In this document: positions 53,042 through 63,956 of the stretch, one piece after another | Layout: each line of letters opens with the position of its first letter | How positions within the stretch are numbered: position 1 is the stretch's first letter | Source of the DNA: Burkholderiales bacterium | GTDB lineage: Bacteria; Pseudomonadota; Gammaproteobacteria; Burkholderiales; JABEVD01 | Assembly: GCA_019753155.1 (NCBI GenBank) | Contig: JAIELG010000016.1 | Location: forward strand, 124,001-188,000 | Length of the DNA: 64,000 bases | Direction: 5' to 3' | The notes under the pieces: model-generated | Seen by the model: only the letters and a program-made list of their open reading frames with translations | Databases searched by the model: none | Told to the model about the DNA's origin: nothing | Position numbers and translations under genes: made by a program

Positions 53042-53138
53042 GCGCATCCTTCTTTGCGTCCCTCGAAATAAGGGCACCAGTCAGGCAGGCGAAGGTTTCC
53101 CGCTTTTCGCCCCGTCGGGCTAGGCTGGCGCTTAATCG

Positions 53139-53942: not shown

Positions 53943-55247
53943 TCATTTCGACACCACCCGAAGGCCCGGCGTCGCCTGCTTGGGGTCGAATTTGATTTCG
54001 GCCTGTTCCAGAATCCACGCCTCGTACTTGCCATGCCACACGGCCAAGAGTTCAAGGGGGCGGTTGATGTAATGCTTTTCGGCTGTGGCATTCGGGGCAT
54101 GGCCCATGATTTGCGCTACCACCCCGCGCGGCATTTCCACCCATTCGGCAAGGCTGGCGAAAGTGCGGCGCAGCCCGTGCAAGGTCACATGCTTAAGCCC
54201 GGCAACGGATAGAGCGCGATTGTGGGGAATGCGCGGCTCGGCAATCTTGCCATCGGCAGCGGTCGGACTACTGAAAACCCATTCGTTGCGGCGCGGCAGC
54301 ATCGAAAGCAGACTCGACAGGTAGGGGGTGAGCGGGATTTTTCTTCCTTCATCGGCCACCTTGTCTTTTACCCATAGCGAGCCCCATTTGAAATCGACAT
54401 CTTCCCATTTCAGCCCGGCCAATTCTTCGCGGCGGGCACCCGTCAGCAGCAAGCCTTGCAGATAGGCGCTGATTACCGGGTTACTCAATCCGCGCACGGC
54501 GGCAAACCATGCCGGAAGATGAGCGCGTTCCATCACGTCGAATTTCTTGCTTTTCCGGCTCGGCACCTCGGCGCGAAGGTCCTTGTTTTCCACGGCTTTA
54601 GCGTTGATGATGGCGGCATATTCGGGGCGGGAATCGCACCAGCGCCAGAAGGCGCGGAAAAGCTCGAATCCCTGCCGGGCATTGTTGGCGCGGGTTTCCG
54701 CTTCCTTCGTTTGCCATGCCGTCAGCGCGTCGGCGTCAATGTCGGCCAGGCGCTTTTGCAGCAGGGGATAAAGCACCCCTTGCACCGTCCCCCCCTTGCC
54801 GCGCTTCTTCGGTTCGCCGCCAGCTTGGGACAAATTCAGATGGTCGGCCATGTGGCGGGCTCCCCAGCGCCTTTCGTGATGCGCGAGATATGCGTCCCAT
54901 GCTTCGAATGACAGTGCATCCTTTTGCTTGGCGTGGACTCTTGCGGCTTCCCTCGATGCGGTTTCATCCGCTTTTATCTGGCGCGGGTCCTTATTGGCGT
55001 CAATCAGCACTTTCAGGCGGCGGGCTTCGGTTTGCGCGGCGGTAATGGTCCACGTCCTGGGGTCGCCTATAGTGATGCGTATCGCATTGCCGTCAAGCTT
55101 GACCTGGAATATGTAGGACTTGGCACCGGCAGCAGTCACCCGCAGCCCCAAGCCCGGCGAAACGGAATCCCATAGGAAACTTTGCGCCTTCCCTGATTCG
55201 CACTCGAAGCCTTCAACCCTTCCAGCCGTGAATTTCACCTTTGCCAT
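53943..55247 (-). CDS. Site-specific tyrosine integrase of element 1
   Basis: 434-residue phage-type integrase that should recombine the tRNA-fMet 3' end. N-terminal arm-binding domain (DUF4102-like, LRVTAAGAKSYIFQVKLDGNAIRITIG) at 1-110, SAM-like core-binding domain to about 225, catalytic domain after that with Arg in TGARREEL, HGLRRTFASL, GHA and the nucleophile Tyr in EKHYINRP. All catalytic residues are present. Its start lies 164 bp from attachment copy 2, with the arm-type repeats between. Confidence 0.93.
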   Translation of the reverse strand: MAKVKFTAGRVEGFECESGKAQSFLWDSVSPGLGLRVTAAGAKSYIFQVKLDGNAIRITIGDPRTWTITAAQTEARRLKVLIDANKDPRQIKADETASREAARVHAKQKDALSFEAWDAYLAHHERRWGARHMADHLNLSQAGGEPKKRGKGGTVQGVLYPLLQKRLADIDADALTAWQTKEAETRANNARQGFELFRAFWRWCDSRPEYAAIINAKAVENKDLRAEVPSRKSKKFDVMERAHLPAWFAAVRGLSNPVISAYLQGLLLTGARREELAGLKWEDVDFKWGSLWVKDKVADEGRKIPLTPYLSSLLSMLPRRNEWVFSSPTAADGKIAEPRIPHNRALSVAGLKHVTLHGLRRTFASLAEWVEMPRGVVAQIMGHAPNATAEKHYINRPLELLAVWHGKYEAWILEQAEIKFDPKQATPGLRVVSK

Positions 55248-55285: not shown

Positions 55286-55411
55286 ATTATAGCAATATTT
55301 GGGAATGTCGGGGAATATTCAAAACTTGCTTGCCTTTCGTTAAATGCCATATTATCAGTAAGATATGTGCATTACGGGAATAGCGGTCAACGCCTGGAAA
55401 TGCCATATTGT

Positions 55412-55461
55412 TCGGGCTCATAACCCGAAGGTCACAGGTTCAAATCCTGTCCCCGCAACCA
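55412..55461 (+). repeat. Attachment site copy 2, junction of the two elements
   Basis: Perfect 50 bp copy of the tRNA-fMet 3' end (anticodon arm to CCA). The 5' half of the tRNA is missing here, so this is not a tRNA gene. It ends element 1 and begins element 2. Confidence 0.9.
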
Positions 55462-56122: not shown

Positions 56123-56851
56123 ATGAAACATCCATTCGAGGTTGTGGTATGGTTGGGCGGGTTGTTGAGCGCGAATCTGGCGCAGGCCAGCCTGGTATCG
56201 GCGGGTGCGGGCCTGGTGTACGACAATGTGGCGAATGTCACCTGGAGTTCCGACGCCAATCTTTTCGGCACGATGGTGGCATCGAACCCGAATCTGGTGA
56301 ACCAGATCATTGCCGCGTCGCCGACAATTACTGACAGCTTGGGAGTCCATAGCGTAGTCGCAGGCGATTTCAACACGGGTGGTGTTGCAGATTGGTACGG
56401 TGCATTGGCCTTCGCGAAATATCTCAACAGCATCCATTATCTGGGCAAAAACGCCTGGATGTTGCCGACCACCTACGATCAGACCTGTTACTACAGTTAC
56501 AACTGCACCAACAGCATGCTGGGAGAGCTGTTCTACACCGGTCTGGGCGGCGTGGCGGGTCAATACATCACCACCACTCACAATGCCAGCTACAACCTGT
56601 TCGCGAATATCCAGAACAACTATTACTGGTCCGGTACGGAGTACGCGGCGATTCCTGCCTACACGTTGTCCTTCAATACCTCAAACGGCTACCAGACCCC
56701 GTTCAACAAGGCCAACGGCTACGGACTCAACGCCTATTCGTGGGCCGTGCTTCCCGGCAATGCCGCCGTGCCAGAGCCCGCGGGATTGGCCTTGTTCGGC
56801 ATCGGGCTTGTCGGGTTGATGGCGGGGCGGCGGCGTCCAAGCTTCGGGTGA
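56123..56851 (+). CDS. PEP-CTERM sorting domain protein
   Basis: Exported protein of 242 residues. Signal peptide (residues 1-22, ending LAQA), a DUF1566-like domain (GLVYDNVANVTWSSDANLF and later KNAWMLPT, near 30-115) and the C-terminal sorting signal VPEPAGLALFGIGLVGLMAGRRRPS: VPEP, a hydrophobic helix and an Arg cluster. Exosortase would cleave it and place it on the surface or in the exopolysaccharide matrix. No exosortase gene is in the window. Start behind AAGGGGGG. Notable as cargo of an element remnant. Confidence 0.88.
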   Translation: MKHPFEVVVWLGGLLSANLAQASLVSAGAGLVYDNVANVTWSSDANLFGTMVASNPNLVNQIIAASPTITDSLGVHSVVAGDFNTGGVADWYGALAFAKYLNSIHYLGKNAWMLPTTYDQTCYYSYNCTNSMLGELFYTGLGGVAGQYITTTHNASYNLFANIQNNYYWSGTEYAAIPAYTLSFNTSNGYQTPFNKANGYGLNAYSWAVLPGNAAVPEPAGLALFGIGLVGLMAGRRRPSFG

Positions 56852-56938: not shown

Positions 56939-57445
56939 TCAGGCGGCGTGCTCTGGCATGGCCGCTTCGCGCAGGGCGGTATTCATCAAAGTTTGATAAC
57001 CTGTCCCTTCAGCAACCGCGCCCAAGCCGCCATACGCTTCAGCCCGTGGTTGGCGCATTGCCTGGCGTGCCGCGTTAGCCAGGAACCCTGAGCGAGTTTC
57101 GCCATGAGCGCTGGCATATTCGTCGATCTTCGCCAACAACAAACGCGGTAACGTGATGTTGAGCTTTTCAGCCGGGCCGAAGTACCGTTCTACAGGCGCT
57201 TCCACCACCGCCCATATCGATCCCGCAAAATCGGGATCGACTTGATGCTCTGTCAAGGTCTTGGCGACAGGGATATCTCCACCATCCTCGATCACTGTTT
57301 CGCACCACAGATCAATCGCTTCACGGGCGTTGTCCACGGCCTTATCCAAGGTGTCCCCAGCCGAAAAGCATCCGGGTAGATCAGGTACAACCACTCCGAA
57401 TGAGGTGGTTTCTGTGCCGGGCTCAATAGCCATAATGAATTTCAT
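56939..57445 (-). CDS. hicB: HicB-family antitoxin without visible HicA
   Basis: 168 residues. The N-terminal HicB domain is FGVVVPDLPGCFSAGDTLDKAVDNAREAIDLW (residues 16-47). A ribbon-helix-helix-like DNA-binding region follows (LNITLPRLLLAKIDEYASAHGETRSGFLANAAR, near 95-127). AAAAGGAGGTTTT is a strong binding site. HicA would be expected directly upstream or downstream, but upstream is a recombinase fragment and downstream only repeats, so it is an orphan unless HicA is elsewhere. Confidence 0.85.
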   Translation of the reverse strand: MKFIMAIEPGTETTSFGVVVPDLPGCFSAGDTLDKAVDNAREAIDLWCETVIEDGGDIPVAKTLTEHQVDPDFAGSIWAVVEAPVERYFGPAEKLNITLPRLLLAKIDEYASAHGETRSGFLANAARQAMRQPRAEAYGGLGAVAEGTGYQTLMNTALREAAMPEHAA

Positions 57446-58452: not shown

Positions 58453-59319
58453 ATGCCCATAATCCTTTTCATCTGGATGGCCCTGTTTTACACCTGTGCA
58501 TCGGCGGAGAGCGGCATGTTGTCGGGGAGCGAATTCGAATACAAGGTGGCGCCCGGCGATTACCTCATCAAGATCGGAGCGAGATTCGGCATCTCCGCCA
58601 AGACGATCGCCCGGAAAAACGGTATCGGGTATGACGACATCCTGTTTCCCGGAAAGCGCCTGAAACTGGACAATCGCCATATCGTGCCCGAAGGCTTGTC
58701 GGACGGGATATTGATCAACCTGCCGCAAGGCATGCTTTTTTTCTTCAGTGAAGGCAAGTTTCAGGCAGCCTATCCGGTCGGCCTCGGCAAGCCGTCATGG
58801 GCGACGCCGGAGAGCGACTTCAAGGTGGTGAACCTCCAGGAGAACAAGGCATGGATCGTCCCGAAATCCATACAGCAGGAAATGCAGCGCGAAGGCAAGG
58901 CCGTCCTGACAAAGGTGCCTCCCGGCCCGGACAATCCTCTAGGCAAACACTGGATCGGACTCAGCATCAATGGTTACGGCATACATGGCACGATCGCGCC
59001 CGCCAGCGTGTATCATTTTCAAAGCCATGGCTGCATAAGAATGCAGGAAGAGGATATTGCCGCGCTTTTTCCAAGGGTGAAGACAGGGATGAAAGGCAGG
59101 ATCGTATATGTTCCGCTATTGCTCGCGGTAACGGGAAGTGGGAGAATCTTCATCGAGTCCCATCCGGACATTTACAAAAGAAAATTCGAATATCTTAAAA
59201 CCGCCCATGAACTCGCCGGGCCTCTGGGTGCCAGGGTGAACTGGGAACTTGCCGAAGAAGCCATCGCCAGAAGCGATGGCGCGGCGCAGGATGTGACACT
59301 GGAGGAGGGAAAGCCTTGA
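58453..59319 (+). CDS. LysM and YkuD L,D-transpeptidase
   Basis: Periplasmic cell-wall enzyme forming 3-3 cross-links or attaching protein to peptidoglycan. 288 residues: signal peptide (1-18), LysM domain 27-72 (YKVAPGDYLIKIGARFGISAKTIARKNG) and YkuD domain about 86-215 with the active site HGTIAPASVYHFQSHGCIRM (His, Cys). It overlaps the YcbK-like gene by 4 bp (ATGA), so the two are produced together. Confidence 0.92.
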   Translation: MPIILFIWMALFYTCASAESGMLSGSEFEYKVAPGDYLIKIGARFGISAKTIARKNGIGYDDILFPGKRLKLDNRHIVPEGLSDGILINLPQGMLFFFSEGKFQAAYPVGLGKPSWATPESDFKVVNLQENKAWIVPKSIQQEMQREGKAVLTKVPPGPDNPLGKHWIGLSINGYGIHGTIAPASVYHFQSHGCIRMQEEDIAALFPRVKTGMKGRIVYVPLLLAVTGSGRIFIESHPDIYKRKFEYLKTAHELAGPLGARVNWELAEEAIARSDGAAQDVTLEEGKP

Positions 59320-59846
59320 TGAGGCGGCGTCGTTTTTTGAAACTGGGGGTGGCCGGGCTGCTCTCTATGGCTGCAGGAAGAACGCTTGCTGCGATGCCGG
59401 ACAGGACGCTCTCGCTTTATAATATCCATACCGGAGAGCAGCTTAACACGACATATTGGGCGGATGGGGTCTACGTCGCCGCGTCGCTTGACGAGATCAA
59501 CCATGTCCTGCGCGACTATCGAACCAATGAGACCATGAATATGGACAGCCGTTTGCTCGATCTCCTCCATGCCGTCAGATCGATGCTCGGCGGATCGCTT
59601 CCCTTTCACGTCATTTCGGGCTACCGCTCTGCCGCCACCAATGCTTATCTTGCTGAGACAAGCAGCGGCGTCGCCAGAAAAAGCCTGCACATGAAGGGGC
59701 AGGCTGCGGATATTTTTCTTCCCGGGAGCGATCTGCCCAGCCTTCGCCGGGCTGCTCTGGATCTGAATCTGGGCGGCGTGGGCTATTATCCCCGCTCGAA
59801 TTTCGTCCATGTCGATGTGGGCAGGGTCCGCGCCTGGCAAGGCTGA
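59316..59846 (+). CDS. YcbK/MepK-like Tat-exported peptidase (DUF882)
   Basis: Zinc peptidase of the M15/DUF882 family expected to cut peptidoglycan cross-links. 176 residues. The N-terminus MRRRRFLKLGVAGLLSMAAG is a twin-arginine signal (RRRFLK). Metal site residues are in SGYRSAATNAYL, SLHMKGQAADIFL (His, Asp) and NFVHVDVG (His). Coupling to an L,D-transpeptidase fits the known MepK activity on 3-3 cross-links in E. coli: one makes them, the other opens them. Confidence 0.9.
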   Translation: MMRRRRFLKLGVAGLLSMAAGRTLAAMPDRTLSLYNIHTGEQLNTTYWADGVYVAASLDEINHVLRDYRTNETMNMDSRLLDLLHAVRSMLGGSLPFHVISGYRSAATNAYLAETSSGVARKSLHMKGQAADIFLPGSDLPSLRRAALDLNLGGVGYYPRSNFVHVDVGRVRAWQG

Positions 59847-59884: not shown

Positions 59885-61801
59885 ATGTCGAGAACATTGC
59901 TGTTCCTGTTTTTCGTTTTTCAGGTTGTTCTTTCCCGCGCGGAGGGCATCACGGAGGAGGACTTTCTTTCCGAAATGCCTGTCGTCCTTTCAGCTTCCAG
60001 ACTCAATCAGCCGCTTGACGAGGCGCCATCCGCAGTGACGGTCATCGGCCGGGAAACGATACGCGCATCAGGCTACAGGCAGATCGCCGACCTGTTCAGG
60101 CTGGTTCCGGGTTTTTACGTGAGCTATTTCAACGGACATCATCCAGTAGTCAGTTACCATGGCATGTCGGACCAGTATTCCAGGAGGATGCAGGTTCTGG
60201 TCGACGGGAGATCTATCTATATGCCGCCTACCGGCAGCGTGGACTGGAGCAGCCTGCCGATCACCGTAGACGATATCGAGCGCATCGAGGTGGTAAGGGG
60301 CGCGAGCGCAGCATCTCATGGTGCCAATTCGTTTCTGGGCGTGATCAGCATCACTACCCGCAATCCGGCATTGGAATATGGTGTTGCAGGTTCGCTGACG
60401 GGTGGGGCGAACGGGACGGGAGACGGATTTTTTCGCTATGGCGGGAAATCGGATAATCTCGATTACAGGTTTGCCCTGGGTTATCGTTCGGACAACGGCT
60501 TTGCCAAGGTGAACGACAGCAATCGCATCAACCTTGTGAATCTGAGCGCCGATTATGATATGACCCCGTCCGATTTGTTGCAGATCAGGTTGGGGGATGC
60601 TCACGGACAGCAGGGTTTGGGGGACCCGGGCAATACGGGCACGGTGAATCCGTCCGATCCGCCGAGGAATTCCATGGTCACCAACGAGTTCGAGTCGGTG
60701 CACTGGGTGAGAAGCCGGGATGCGGGAAACGATATTTCCGTCCTGTTCTATCATAATTATCAGCGCCTTTCCGATGCGTATCTGACGCTTCCAGGTCTTG
60801 TCCCGGGAGGGGTGGTTTTTCCGGTGGATGCGGGCATCACAGGCAGGCGCTATCATCTCGAATACCAGCAGTCTTACAGCATGAGTCCGACATTCAGAAA
60901 TTTGTGGGGCGGGTCGGTGAGGCTCGACGAATCGTTCGCGCCGCTTTACATGAAGGGGCACCTGGAAGAGCCGAGCCAGAGTGTTTTTTGGCACGGGGAG
61001 TGGCGGGTTGTGCCTAAGCTCGTCGTCAATGTCGGAGCGATGCTCGAGCGCAATGATTATATCGGGAAGGATGTCTCCCCTCAGGTCGCTCTCAATTACC
61101 ACCTGAGCCGCAGCAATACGGTACGCATGAGTTTTTCGAAGGCCGTGCGCGCTCCCGCCATGTTCGAGCAGAAGGGCGATCTGGTGTATGTGCTGGGCAA
61201 AATTGTGGTGCCCAGGTTTTACGGTCCCGGAAATTTGCGCCCGGAAAAAGTGCGTTCCAGGGACATCGGGTATATCGGCGATTTTTTCGATTCCGCAATC
61301 GTGCTCGATGCGAGGCTGTACCAGGATCATTTCGATGACCTGATTGCGACTTCGGCCACGCCTTTCCCGAGGACTTTCGGCAATTTCGGCGCAGCCGACG
61401 AGAAGGGGGTGGAAATCCAGCTGAAGTGGAAACCCGCCGAGGCGTCACAGATTACGGCCAATTTATCCCATTCAAACATTTCCGGAAATTTCGTGGAAAG
61501 CTATAACCAGTCTGTGCCGAAAAACAATCTGACCCTGTTCGCCATGCACCGCTTTTCTTCGGTTTTGGATGCGAGTTGCGTCTATACCCGGCAAGGCGAT
61601 GTCAGGGCTCTTGGGGACGGTCAACTCGTCAACGGGTTCAGCCGATTCGATTTCAGGCTTGCCCGGTCTTTTCATGTCGAGCGCAAACGCGCCGAAGTCG
61701 CCCTGGTTGTGCAGAATCTTCTGAATACACCCTATTCCGAATTCAGAACCCTGAATGTTTCCGATCGGCAAGTGTATCTGACGTTGAATTTTGGCATGTA
61801 A
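59885..61801 (+). CDS. TonB-dependent outer membrane receptor
   Basis: Outer membrane transporter of 638 residues. A signal peptide (1-19) precedes a plug domain (about 45-165) with PSAVTVIGRETIRASG and IERIEVVRGASAASHGANSFLGVISITTR; the barrel ends in YLTLNFGM, one residue past the usual terminal aromatic. The ligand is unknown: no TonB, siderophore or B12 genes are nearby. It starts an operon with a binding protein 3 bp downstream and a diguanylate cyclase, which points to ligand sensing rather than bulk uptake. Confidence 0.93.
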   Translation: MSRTLLFLFFVFQVVLSRAEGITEEDFLSEMPVVLSASRLNQPLDEAPSAVTVIGRETIRASGYRQIADLFRLVPGFYVSYFNGHHPVVSYHGMSDQYSRRMQVLVDGRSIYMPPTGSVDWSSLPITVDDIERIEVVRGASAASHGANSFLGVISITTRNPALEYGVAGSLTGGANGTGDGFFRYGGKSDNLDYRFALGYRSDNGFAKVNDSNRINLVNLSADYDMTPSDLLQIRLGDAHGQQGLGDPGNTGTVNPSDPPRNSMVTNEFESVHWVRSRDAGNDISVLFYHNYQRLSDAYLTLPGLVPGGVVFPVDAGITGRRYHLEYQQSYSMSPTFRNLWGGSVRLDESFAPLYMKGHLEEPSQSVFWHGEWRVVPKLVVNVGAMLERNDYIGKDVSPQVALNYHLSRSNTVRMSFSKAVRAPAMFEQKGDLVYVLGKIVVPRFYGPGNLRPEKVRSRDIGYIGDFFDSAIVLDARLYQDHFDDLIATSATPFPRTFGNFGAADEKGVEIQLKWKPAEASQITANLSHSNISGNFVESYNQSVPKNNLTLFAMHRFSSVLDASCVYTRQGDVRALGDGQLVNGFSRFDFRLARSFHVERKRAEVALVVQNLLNTPYSEFRTLNVSDRQVYLTLNFGM

Positions 61802-61804
61802 ACC

Positions 61805-62707
61805 TTGAAAGCCATACTGATCAAATGCGTGCTTGCATGGTGCCTGGTCTGGGCAACCCCGGGTTCTTGCACGCCCCTGAACGTGATCTTTCTGACTGGA
61901 CGGGATGATTCCATTCCGGGTGAACTGCTCTTCAGGATCAAAAAGGAAATAGAAGGCCGCGCTTCCGTGAATGTCTCGAACATGCGCTTCGACGGAATGT
62001 TCCGTTCCAATGAAATCGTCATCGCTTTCGGGGTCAATGGAGCCAGGCTTGCCGCTGCACTCGATCCGCGCATTCCGGTATTGAGCATTTTCGTTCCCGA
62101 AAAAGCATTCAGCGAGATCGGGCGAGCGCGCAGGACATTTTCCGCAATTTATATCGATCAGCCACTGGAGCGGCAAATGCATCTCATCCGACTGGCTTTT
62201 CCGCAAAGGCGGCATGTCGGGGTTCTGCTCGGACCGGGTTCGCAGGGGCAGCTCTCATCCATTCGAGCGGCGGCTTCAGATAATGAACTCGAGTTGGCGT
62301 TCGGGATGTTTTCATCCCAGTCGGAATTGTTTTCATCGTTCGATAAGATTTTGAAGGAAAGCGATGTCATTCTCGCAGTTCCGGACCCGCTTGTATTCAA
62401 CAGCGGCACGATCTCGGGAATTCTTTTGACCGCCTATCGGCGACATGTACCCCTGGTGGGATTTTCCCCTTCTTACGTTAAAGCCGGTTCGCTTGTTGCA
62501 CTGTATTCGACAGTCGAGCAAATCGGCTGGCAGGTGTCCGAGGCGATTGCGAAATTCTCAAGCACGGGTGCGTTGCCTGTGCCCGGATATCCCGCCTATT
62601 TCACAGTCGGCGTCAACAGGTATGTGGCGCGATCGATGGAGATCGAGGTTCAGGACGAGGCGACTATAGAAGAAAAGTTGATCCACATGGAGGGACGCCA
62701 TGAATAA
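61805..62707 (+). CDS. Periplasmic ABC-type substrate-binding protein (PF04392-like)
   Basis: 300 residues with a signal peptide (1-22). The two-lobe pattern of the uncharacterised ABC substrate-binding family is visible: VIAFGVNGARLAAALDPRIPVLSIFVP near residue 75, RRHVGVLLGPGSQGQLSSIRAA near 138 and GILLTAYRRHVPLVGFSPSYVKAGSLVALYSTVEQIGWQ near 205-245. No permease or ATPase gene accompanies it, so it may present a ligand to the cyclase downstream. The start is TTG, 3 bp after the receptor stop, and the end overlaps the cyclase by 8 bp, so expression depends on the operon. Confidence 0.8.
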   Translation: MKAILIKCVLAWCLVWATPGSCTPLNVIFLTGRDDSIPGELLFRIKKEIEGRASVNVSNMRFDGMFRSNEIVIAFGVNGARLAAALDPRIPVLSIFVPEKAFSEIGRARRTFSAIYIDQPLERQMHLIRLAFPQRRHVGVLLGPGSQGQLSSIRAAASDNELELAFGMFSSQSELFSSFDKILKESDVILAVPDPLVFNSGTISGILLTAYRRHVPLVGFSPSYVKAGSLVALYSTVEQIGWQVSEAIAKFSSTGALPVPGYPAYFTVGVNRYVARSMEIEVQDEATIEEKLIHMEGRHE

Positions 62708-63956
62708 ATGGGGAATCAGGAAGCGGATTCTGTTTCTGGCATGGACTCCGAGCTTCTCGATCGCGGTGCTGCTGGTATTGTATTTCACTGCAACCCGTTT
62801 CGATGCCCTGGAAGAGTCGCTTGGCAACCGGGGTGCATCCATAGCGAGGCAACTTGCTCCCGCCAGCGAATACGGCGTGTTTTCCGGCAACAGCGAGATG
62901 CTGCAGAAGATAGCCGATTCGATTCTCGGAGAACCTGATGTCAGGTCGGTCGAGATCAGCGACAATGCCGGAAATATTTTGGCTCAGTCGGAAAATTCGA
63001 AATTCCCCGCCGATCATGTGATCGAATTCGAGGAGGAAATAATGAAGAGCCAAACCCAGCTCGATGATTTCTTTCGGAGCGGTAAGGAAATGAGCAAAAG
63101 GACGGTGATTGGCAAGGTCAAGGTGAAGATGTCGAGACTGTCCCTGATCCAGAAAAAGAAAAGCCTGATGTTCGATGCACTGGGCATCGGGCTCATGGGC
63201 CTTTTGGGCGGGGGGCTGCTTGCGATCCGCATCAGCCGCAGCGTTACCGTCCCCATATTGAGGCTGGCCGATACCGTGGAAAAGCTCGGAAAAGGGGCGC
63301 TCGATACGGTGGTCGAGGTTGACTCGGGCGGTGAGCTTGGCGTGCTCGAAAGCGGGGTGAGTGCGATGGCCTCGAAGCTCAAGTCGATGCTGGACCAACG
63401 CGAGAGCTACAGCCATGGCCTTGAGGAGGAGGTCAGGAAAAGGACGGAGGAACTGGAACTGCTCGCCGTTACTGACGAGCTTACGGGGCTTTACAATCGC
63501 AGGTACCTGAATCGCTCCATGCAGGAAGAGCTGTCCAGATGCCTGCGCTATGGGACGGATTTGTCCGTTTGCCTTATGGATGTCGACCATTTCAAGAAAA
63601 TCAACGACCATTTTGGCCATCAGGCGGGGGACGATGTATTGATATCGCTTTCGAATCTGCTGGAATCGAGTATGCGCGATACCGATATCGTGGGGCGGTA
63701 CGGCGGGGAAGAATTCGCGATAGTGATGCCCAATACTTCGCTCGAAGAAGCGCTTCTGGTTGCGGACAAGATCAGGATTTTCATCCAGAAAATAGTCGTT
63801 CTGGATGGAAGGGAGCGGCAGGTGACAGTCAGCATCGGCGTCGTGGGGTGCATCGAGTCCCAGGTCAAATCCCTGGACGAATTGATCAGCAAGGCCGACC
63901 GCGCGCTCTATGGCGCCAAGGATTCCGGCAGGAACTGCGTGGTCGCTGCCCTGTGA
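62700..63956 (+). CDS. Membrane diguanylate cyclase (sensor-HAMP-GGEEF)
   Basis: 418 residues. Helices at 10-29 and about 157-180 enclose a periplasmic sensor domain of about 125 residues (with ASIARQLAPASEYGVFSGN, a CHASE8-like start). HAMP (about 178-232) and a coiled coil (YSHGLEEEVRKRTEELELLA) lead to the cyclase domain with RYGGEEFAIVMP. The RDTD inhibitory site lies 5 residues before GGEEF, so product feedback is expected. It is translationally coupled to the binding protein, which I infer to be its ligand donor. Confidence 0.93.
   Translation: MNKWGIRKRILFLAWTPSFSIAVLLVLYFTATRFDALEESLGNRGASIARQLAPASEYGVFSGNSEMLQKIADSILGEPDVRSVEISDNAGNILAQSENSKFPADHVIEFEEEIMKSQTQLDDFFRSGKEMSKRTVIGKVKVKMSRLSLIQKKKSLMFDALGIGLMGLLGGGLLAIRISRSVTVPILRLADTVEKLGKGALDTVVEVDSGGELGVLESGVSAMASKLKSMLDQRESYSHGLEEEVRKRTEELELLAVTDELTGLYNRRYLNRSMQEELSRCLRYGTDLSVCLMDVDHFKKINDHFGHQAGDDVLISLSNLLESSMRDTDIVGRYGGEEFAIVMPNTSLEEALLVADKIRIFIQKIVVLDGRERQVTVSIGVVGCIESQVKSLDELISKADRALYGAKDSGRNCVVAAL

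Follow-up and report, generated by a model that had tools for sequence, protein, structure and literature searches.

An intriguing question raised by the locus described here is whether a periplasmic substrate-binding protein, encoded between an outer-membrane receptor and an enzyme of cyclic di-GMP (c-di-GMP) synthesis, serves transport or signaling. The locus lies in a stretch of 64,000 nucleotides (hereafter the window) from Burkholderiales bacterium (GenBank assembly GCA_019753155.1), corresponding to positions 124001-188000 of contig JAIELG010000016.1, and comprises genes for a TonB-dependent receptor, a binding protein of the Pfam family PF04392 and a diguanylate cyclase. Our analyses indicate that this cassette is real and conserved, and that it is most likely a chemical sensor that reports to c-di-GMP. 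The open reading frames and junctions given by a first-pass annotation of the sequence (a receptor, a binding protein with a TTG start and a HAMP-GGEEF cyclase) were confirmed: the TTG codon of the binding protein follows the receptor stop codon after a 3-bp gap, and the last 8 bp of the binding-protein gene overlap the ATG start of the cyclase gene. That annotation had identified the trio correctly, although the periplasmic sCache_4 domain of the cyclase, which proved central to the interpretation, went unnamed. Its proposal that the binding protein signals rather than transports was supported by our comparisons with related genomes, in which the partner is a signaling protein in nearly every case and the output changes behind a constant front end; it is from these two observations that the signaling interpretation gains.

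The linkage of PF04392 with sCache_4 (PF09984) is far beyond chance. The window genome (2.66 Mb) encodes three proteins of each family, and every one of the PF04392 genes is followed immediately by a gene for an sCache_4 protein. When the coordinates of PF04392 and sCache_4 matches were compared across 60 relatives, 19 of the 22 sCache_4 matches were found directly behind a PF04392 match and in the same orientation, as were 18 of the 19 matches that exceed the cut-off; these counts include the three pairs of the window genome. None of the 22 strongest PF04392 matches (>120 bits) was paired with sCache_4, and at the only one with fetched context, in genome G015, the locus contains a permease-like gene and an ATP-binding cassette (ABC) ATPase. 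The difference in partner genes therefore separates a transporter-like and a sensor set within the one family.

The two other pairs of the window genome differ in their composition. In the second (L041:8939-14671; G000:C5), the binding-protein gene is followed by genes for a 982-residue hybrid histidine kinase (sCache_4-HAMP-GAF) and for another kinase-like protein, and no receptor gene adjoins the pair. The third (L052:4988-10880; G000:C10) comprises a 388-residue binding protein and an 829-residue sCache_4-HAMP-PAS-GGDEF-EAL protein, whose sCache_4 match is weak, and has a TonB-dependent receptor gene divergently upstream. Some relatives also have PF04392 genes arrayed in tandem, three to five at a time and unpaired with sCache_4 (G031:C8:51318-56077 and G010:C10:3104-6115).

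Conservation extends to the order of all three genes, a linkage that the first-pass annotation had singled out for checking. The binding protein as query had matches in 18 of the 60 relatives, and inspection of fetched regions revealed the window's gene order of receptor, then binding protein, then sensor at 13 order-level loci, including the window. At class level, 29 further binding proteins were considered, of which 27 have a sensor directly behind, 23 a receptor directly in front and 22 both. The same arrangement was present in loci of further families, including another class of the phylum. In G050 the receptor is placed after the sensor, and a scan that used a single protein as query matched only Marinobacterium. 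Among 12 loci at which the junction was measured, nine show an overlap of precisely 4 bp between the genes for binding protein and sensor, which favors co-translation of the two proteins.

The cassette is also present close to transfer genes on two Massilia plasmids (L076 and L077), where the annotation of the binding protein reads hypothetical protein. Both plasmids are mobilizable, and the cassette, near the conjugation genes, is preceded by genes for a response regulator and a CPBP-family protease. Possibly, the cassette of these plasmids represents a plasmid-borne environmental sensor.

Across the loci, the product of the third gene has the same kind of periplasmic domain and a HAMP domain, with differing outputs. 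A GGDEF output was identified in the window, G003 and G028 by Pfam and in G004 and G008 by profile, a GGDEF-EAL output in G036 and G024 by Pfam and in G052, G057, G005 and G040 by motif, and a hybrid histidine kinase in G022, G050, G032, Marinobacterium and most class-level loci. Output type requires nine parsimony changes on the binding-protein tree, although the exact number is uncertain, as the well-supported branches alone force only two output changes per type. Two genomes of the window's own genus, which are sisters with a support of 100, differ in having GGDEF versus GGDEF-EAL. A constant front end with changing outputs is the pattern expected of a sensor module.

The protein encoded by the third gene of the window is a predicted diguanylate cyclase, as it has a GGDEF domain (PF00990, E 1.6e-47) and, in its translation, an intact active-site motif of the GG(D/E)EF type (GGEEF), with an RxxD product-inhibition site (I-site; RDTD) five residues upstream. 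A HAMP domain and sCache_4 (E 1.4e-12) were also matched, and the AlphaFold2 model of the protein has a predicted local distance difference test score (pLDDT) of 83.6. The sCache_4 region is likely to be the docking domain for the binding protein, a suggestion that draws on the pairing of the two families and on cassettes with a related receptor.

The matches of the window receptor are to Plug (PF07715, E 1.8e-21) and the beta-barrel (PF00593, E 1.6e-28), and it has a TonB-box-like sequence, MPVVLSASR, close to its N terminus. Its best NCBIfam match was NF053590, the OmpS/TOL_0244 family, at 209 bits, with the receptors of the relatives scoring 159-222 bits; by these scores the window receptor is a distant relative of that family. 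Membership in the family was rejected since the scores are far under the cut-off of 645, and since the true members that were scanned carry YfiR instead. FecA-type sigma signaling was similarly considered and rejected, because the Pfam scan of the receptor matched Plug and barrel alone, with no STN signaling domain, and the adjacent window genes are not FecI or FecR.

The OmpS/TOL_0244 family (TOL_0244 being from Thalassolituus), the nearest named family to the window receptor, also precedes a periplasmic protein and a HAMP sensor, although the partners differ. True family members are mostly followed by a gene of ~180-220 codons and then by the HAMP sensor. Four middle proteins scanned from loci of this type were YfiR (DUF4154), and the three sensors scanned carry CHASE8; against NF053590, three of these loci score just under the cut-off and one (L110) above it. 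YfiR thus pairs with CHASE8 and PF04392 with sCache_4, both behind related receptors. Of the sequence evidence, this joint swap of periplasmic protein and receiver domain speaks most strongly for direct contact between them. OmpS of Alcanivorax dieselolei has been reported to be essential for alkane detection (PMC6304351).

The closest reported instance of the cassette appears to be PahS-PahP-PahK of Cycloclasticus sp. P1 (Q91_0827, Q91_0826 and Q91_0825), encoded at consecutive locus tags as a receptor of 687 residues, a substrate-binding protein of 318 and a histidine kinase of 771 (PMC8547461, Table 1). Transposon mutants of each were recovered in a screen for failed growth on polycyclic aromatic hydrocarbons (PAHs), the same screen from which GacA (PahR) came (PMC8547461). 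The likeness is one of annotation, gene order and size only. The sizes match those of the histidine-kinase cassettes in our analysis, and the consecutive receptor, binding protein and sensor are common to both systems, whereas the output is a histidine kinase in Cycloclasticus and GGDEF in the window. We found no paper describing the receptor/PF04392/sCache_4 cassette as a class in the open-access literature searched, and the broader module family has apparently not been described there as such.

Three further systems also resemble the trio, and the best explanation of it would be a variant of YfiBNR, NspS-MbaA and LuxPQ signaling that is gated by a substrate-binding protein. YfiBNR (TpbB) likewise combines an outer-membrane component, a periplasmic protein and a cyclase of HAMP-GGDEF type whose sensor domain is periplasmic; YfiR bridges YfiN and the outer-membrane partner, inhibits YfiN and is itself sequestered at the outer membrane (PMC4655355). 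In the window, a two-domain binding protein stands in place of YfiR, a TonB-dependent receptor in place of the YfiB lipoprotein and sCache_4 in place of CHASE8. In NspS-MbaA of Vibrio cholerae, the activity of a GGDEF-EAL enzyme is under the control of a periplasmic binding protein, and the genes for the two overlap (PMC8967002). The arrangement at the window locus, a binding protein without a permease together with a GGDEF protein, is similar. NspS binds polyamines and is of another substrate-binding protein type than the window protein, and we know of no TonB-dependent receptor dedicated to NspS-MbaA. In LuxP-LuxQ, too, a binding protein signals by way of a membrane sensor, via the periplasmic domain of the latter; this binding protein is from a different family, the output is a kinase and, to our knowledge, the system has no receptor gene.

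The binding protein of the window matched PF04392 with 41.9 bits (E 9.2e-11), above the curated cut-off of 25.9 bits, and its AlphaFold2 model has a pLDDT of 88. The top Protein Data Bank fold matches to this model were VC_1101, SP1069 and CD0873, which are three solved PF04392 proteins with the ligands Phe, Trp and Tyr; LuxP was lower down the list. Two signatures were identified in the window protein, D118-Q-P-x-x-R123 and P193-D-P-x-x-x-N199. In the core sensor set, the first is highly conserved (D in 45, P in 49 and R in 48 of 49 proteins), as is the Asn that follows it (46 of 49). Alignment with VC_1101 indicated that the pocket Asp is kept as D194, and that the Asn of the Asp-Asn motif is replaced by Pro with a two-residue insertion. 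The selectivity residues Ala246 and Tyr262 correspond to Ser221, a Ser being almost invariant across the sensor set, and to Val237, at which position the sensor set has mostly Pro. By this alignment the window protein does not fit the amino-acid pocket of a TrpXYZ-type importer at the Asp-Asn motif or the Ala246 and Tyr262 positions, and it scored 28 bits against the TrpX model, whose cut-off is 390. Since these residues differ from those of PF04392 proteins that bind aromatic amino acids, an ordinary aromatic amino acid is an unlikely ligand for the pocket. Hydrophobic organic compounds are weakly suggested as the ligand by the receptor's known relatives. An attempt to guess the ligand from genome content was uninformative, as a single ring-hydroxylating oxygenase gene was found.

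Taken together, these comparisons make it quite likely that the trio is a three-compartment chemical sensor, in which the receptor would import a ligand and the binding protein would capture it and switch the cyclase via its periplasmic domain. Powered by TonB, the receptor would carry a scarce ligand across the outer membrane. In the periplasm, the PF04392 protein would close on this ligand and, feeding no permease, could dock on the cyclase's sCache_4 domain. The resulting change would travel through HAMP to the GGEEF domain and might alter c-di-GMP in either direction, within a limit set by the I-site.

Several observations weigh against this sensor model or temper it. The window cyclase matches only half of the sCache_4 profile. 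The pocket-region motifs are rather constant across the binding-protein family, for which one shared ligand class is a better fit than many specialized ligands. The pair of binding protein and sensor also exists without an adjacent receptor, at C5 of the window genome and at some class loci, and the receptor is therefore not obligatory. Lastly, the correlation of distances among the receptor, the binding protein and the sensor N terminus (r 0.65-0.75) carries little weight, as it has no species-tree control.

An alternative that we consider unlikely is repression of the kind seen in YfiBNR, with the binding protein as a cyclase-bound repressor that is pulled off by the occupancy or mechanical state of the receptor, such that the state of the receptor or envelope, and not a soluble ligand in the cleft of the binding protein, would set off the response. 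The whole cyclase (residues 24-407) does match the DgcN/YfiN model (E 1.4e-43), albeit at 149 bits and thus below the equivalog cut-off of 325, the parallel cassettes of the receptor's relatives carry YfiR itself, and YfiR both links YfiN to an outer-membrane partner and inhibits it (PMC4655355). Genes for peptidoglycan enzymes upstream of the trio would also suit an envelope theme; however, they are linked to it within the genus only. In addition, a profile search of the window genome found no YfiR-type protein (PF13689/DUF4154), and a full two-domain binding protein with conserved motifs in the cleft region suggests a ligand. It is much less probable still that a small molecule is sensed directly by sCache_4, a role proposed for other cache sensors, with the receptor and binding protein as a separate scavenging unit. 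Such direct sensing would be in keeping with our Escherichia coli control, which has the sCache_4 family and no PF04392 match, and with the three unpaired sCache_4 matches among the 22 in the relatives, but nearly every sCache_4 protein of the lineage is paired with a binding protein, and the latter has no permease to which a ligand could be passed.

We regard as highly improbable the remaining alternative, that the binding protein belongs to an ABC importer encoded at another site, with co-transcription as its only link to the cyclase. PF04392 is a family of transporter subunits, and substrate-binding proteins can act with permeases in trans. However, no permease was found beside the cassettes examined, the binding protein travels with the sensor and not with a permease, and the PF04392 proteins of transporter type form a separate, much higher-scoring set. 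The window genome has just four BPD_transp_2 permease genes, arranged as two pairs on C8 and C2. Neither pair adjoins a PF04392 gene, and that on C8 is accompanied by genes resembling those for amidases, two ATPases and a binding protein of its own; the neighbors at both sites were identified from translations. At the cassette, the permease and ATPase that are encoded with the binding protein of a TrpXYZ-type importer were not found. The first-pass annotation had likewise noted no ABC permease or ATPase, and this holds beyond the window, where comparison with two other genomes indicates a ribosomal RNA (rRNA) operon and not a permease. The contig ends at 188137, 137 bp past the window; in G008, from the same genus, a 16S rRNA gene begins 237 bp downstream of the cyclase gene, and G004 likewise has 16S rRNA at this place. 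The last 63 bp of the window contig align with the rRNA leader before the 16S gene of G008, and the break in the contig is therefore best explained by an rRNA repeat.

The coordinates of the trio and of the two genes preceding it are listed in Table 1. In describing the operon, the first-pass annotation was accurate as to the trio and left out these two co-directional genes for cell-wall enzymes, which probably share its transcript, in which case the L,D-transpeptidase gene would be the first of the operon. A sigma-70 promoter scan gave no clear excess over shuffled sequence. A conserved operon of the trio with peptidoglycan genes was rejected since, in the regions fetched around the relatives' matches, two genomes, both of the window's genus, were the only ones with the cell-wall enzyme genes adjoining the trio.

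Table 1. Features of the receptor, binding protein and cyclase locus (window positions).
Feature	Position	Strand	Description
LysM + YkuD L,D-transpeptidase gene	58453-59319	+	Upstream of trio; genus-restricted
M15-type peptidase (DUF882) gene	59316-59846	+	TTG start; overlaps L,D-transpeptidase gene; 38 bp before receptor gene; genus-restricted
TonB-dependent outer-membrane receptor gene	59885-61801	+	638 aa; Plug and beta-barrel (Pfam)
Periplasmic substrate-binding protein gene, PF04392 (ABC_sub_bind)	61805-62707	+	300 aa; TTG start; signal-peptide-like N terminus
Inner-membrane diguanylate cyclase gene	62700-63956	+	418 aa; transmembrane segment, sCache_4, transmembrane segment, HAMP, GGEEF with RxxD I-site
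sCache_4 (PF09984) match	62793-63002	+	Profile positions 2-73 of 145

Further upstream, a tyrosine-recombinase-like gene on the minus strand (53943-55247), a weak transfer RNA (tRNA) match (53061-53130) and an int-alpA RNA (55391-55458) form a cluster that is likely the remnant or edge of an integrated island. The segment 57655-57726 resembles a tRNA 3' half, with the anticodon CAU and a CCA end; Rfam made no call there at gathering level, and the segment is a possible attachment-site duplicate. A small exported protein encoded at 56123-56851 ends in a PEP-CTERM-like sorting signal (VPEP...GLMAGRRR), suggesting an exosortase in the host, and a HicB-like antitoxin-type open reading frame is present at 56939-57445 on the minus strand.

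If the sensor model is correct, a TonB-dependent receptor in this bacterium would supply a sensor and not metabolism, and a binding protein of ABC type would have been turned into a switch. On balance, we favor the broader view that PF04392 comprises importers and sensors, and that the sensors, marked by DQPxxR and near-obligate pairing with sCache_4, may represent a large family of receptor-fed switches into cyclase, cyclase-phosphodiesterase or kinase outputs. Parallel to YfiR/CHASE8, they would constitute a general and modular form of outer-membrane-to-cytoplasm sensing in Pseudomonadota that has so far been seen as isolated cases. A role as signaling subunit could then be assigned to many gene products now labeled ABC transporter substrate-binding protein or hypothetical protein, and the reports of alkane and PAH sensing would be tied to one testable architecture. 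Potentially, the interchangeable outputs make the front end a ready module with which to search for external signals acting on biofilm or motility through c-di-GMP.

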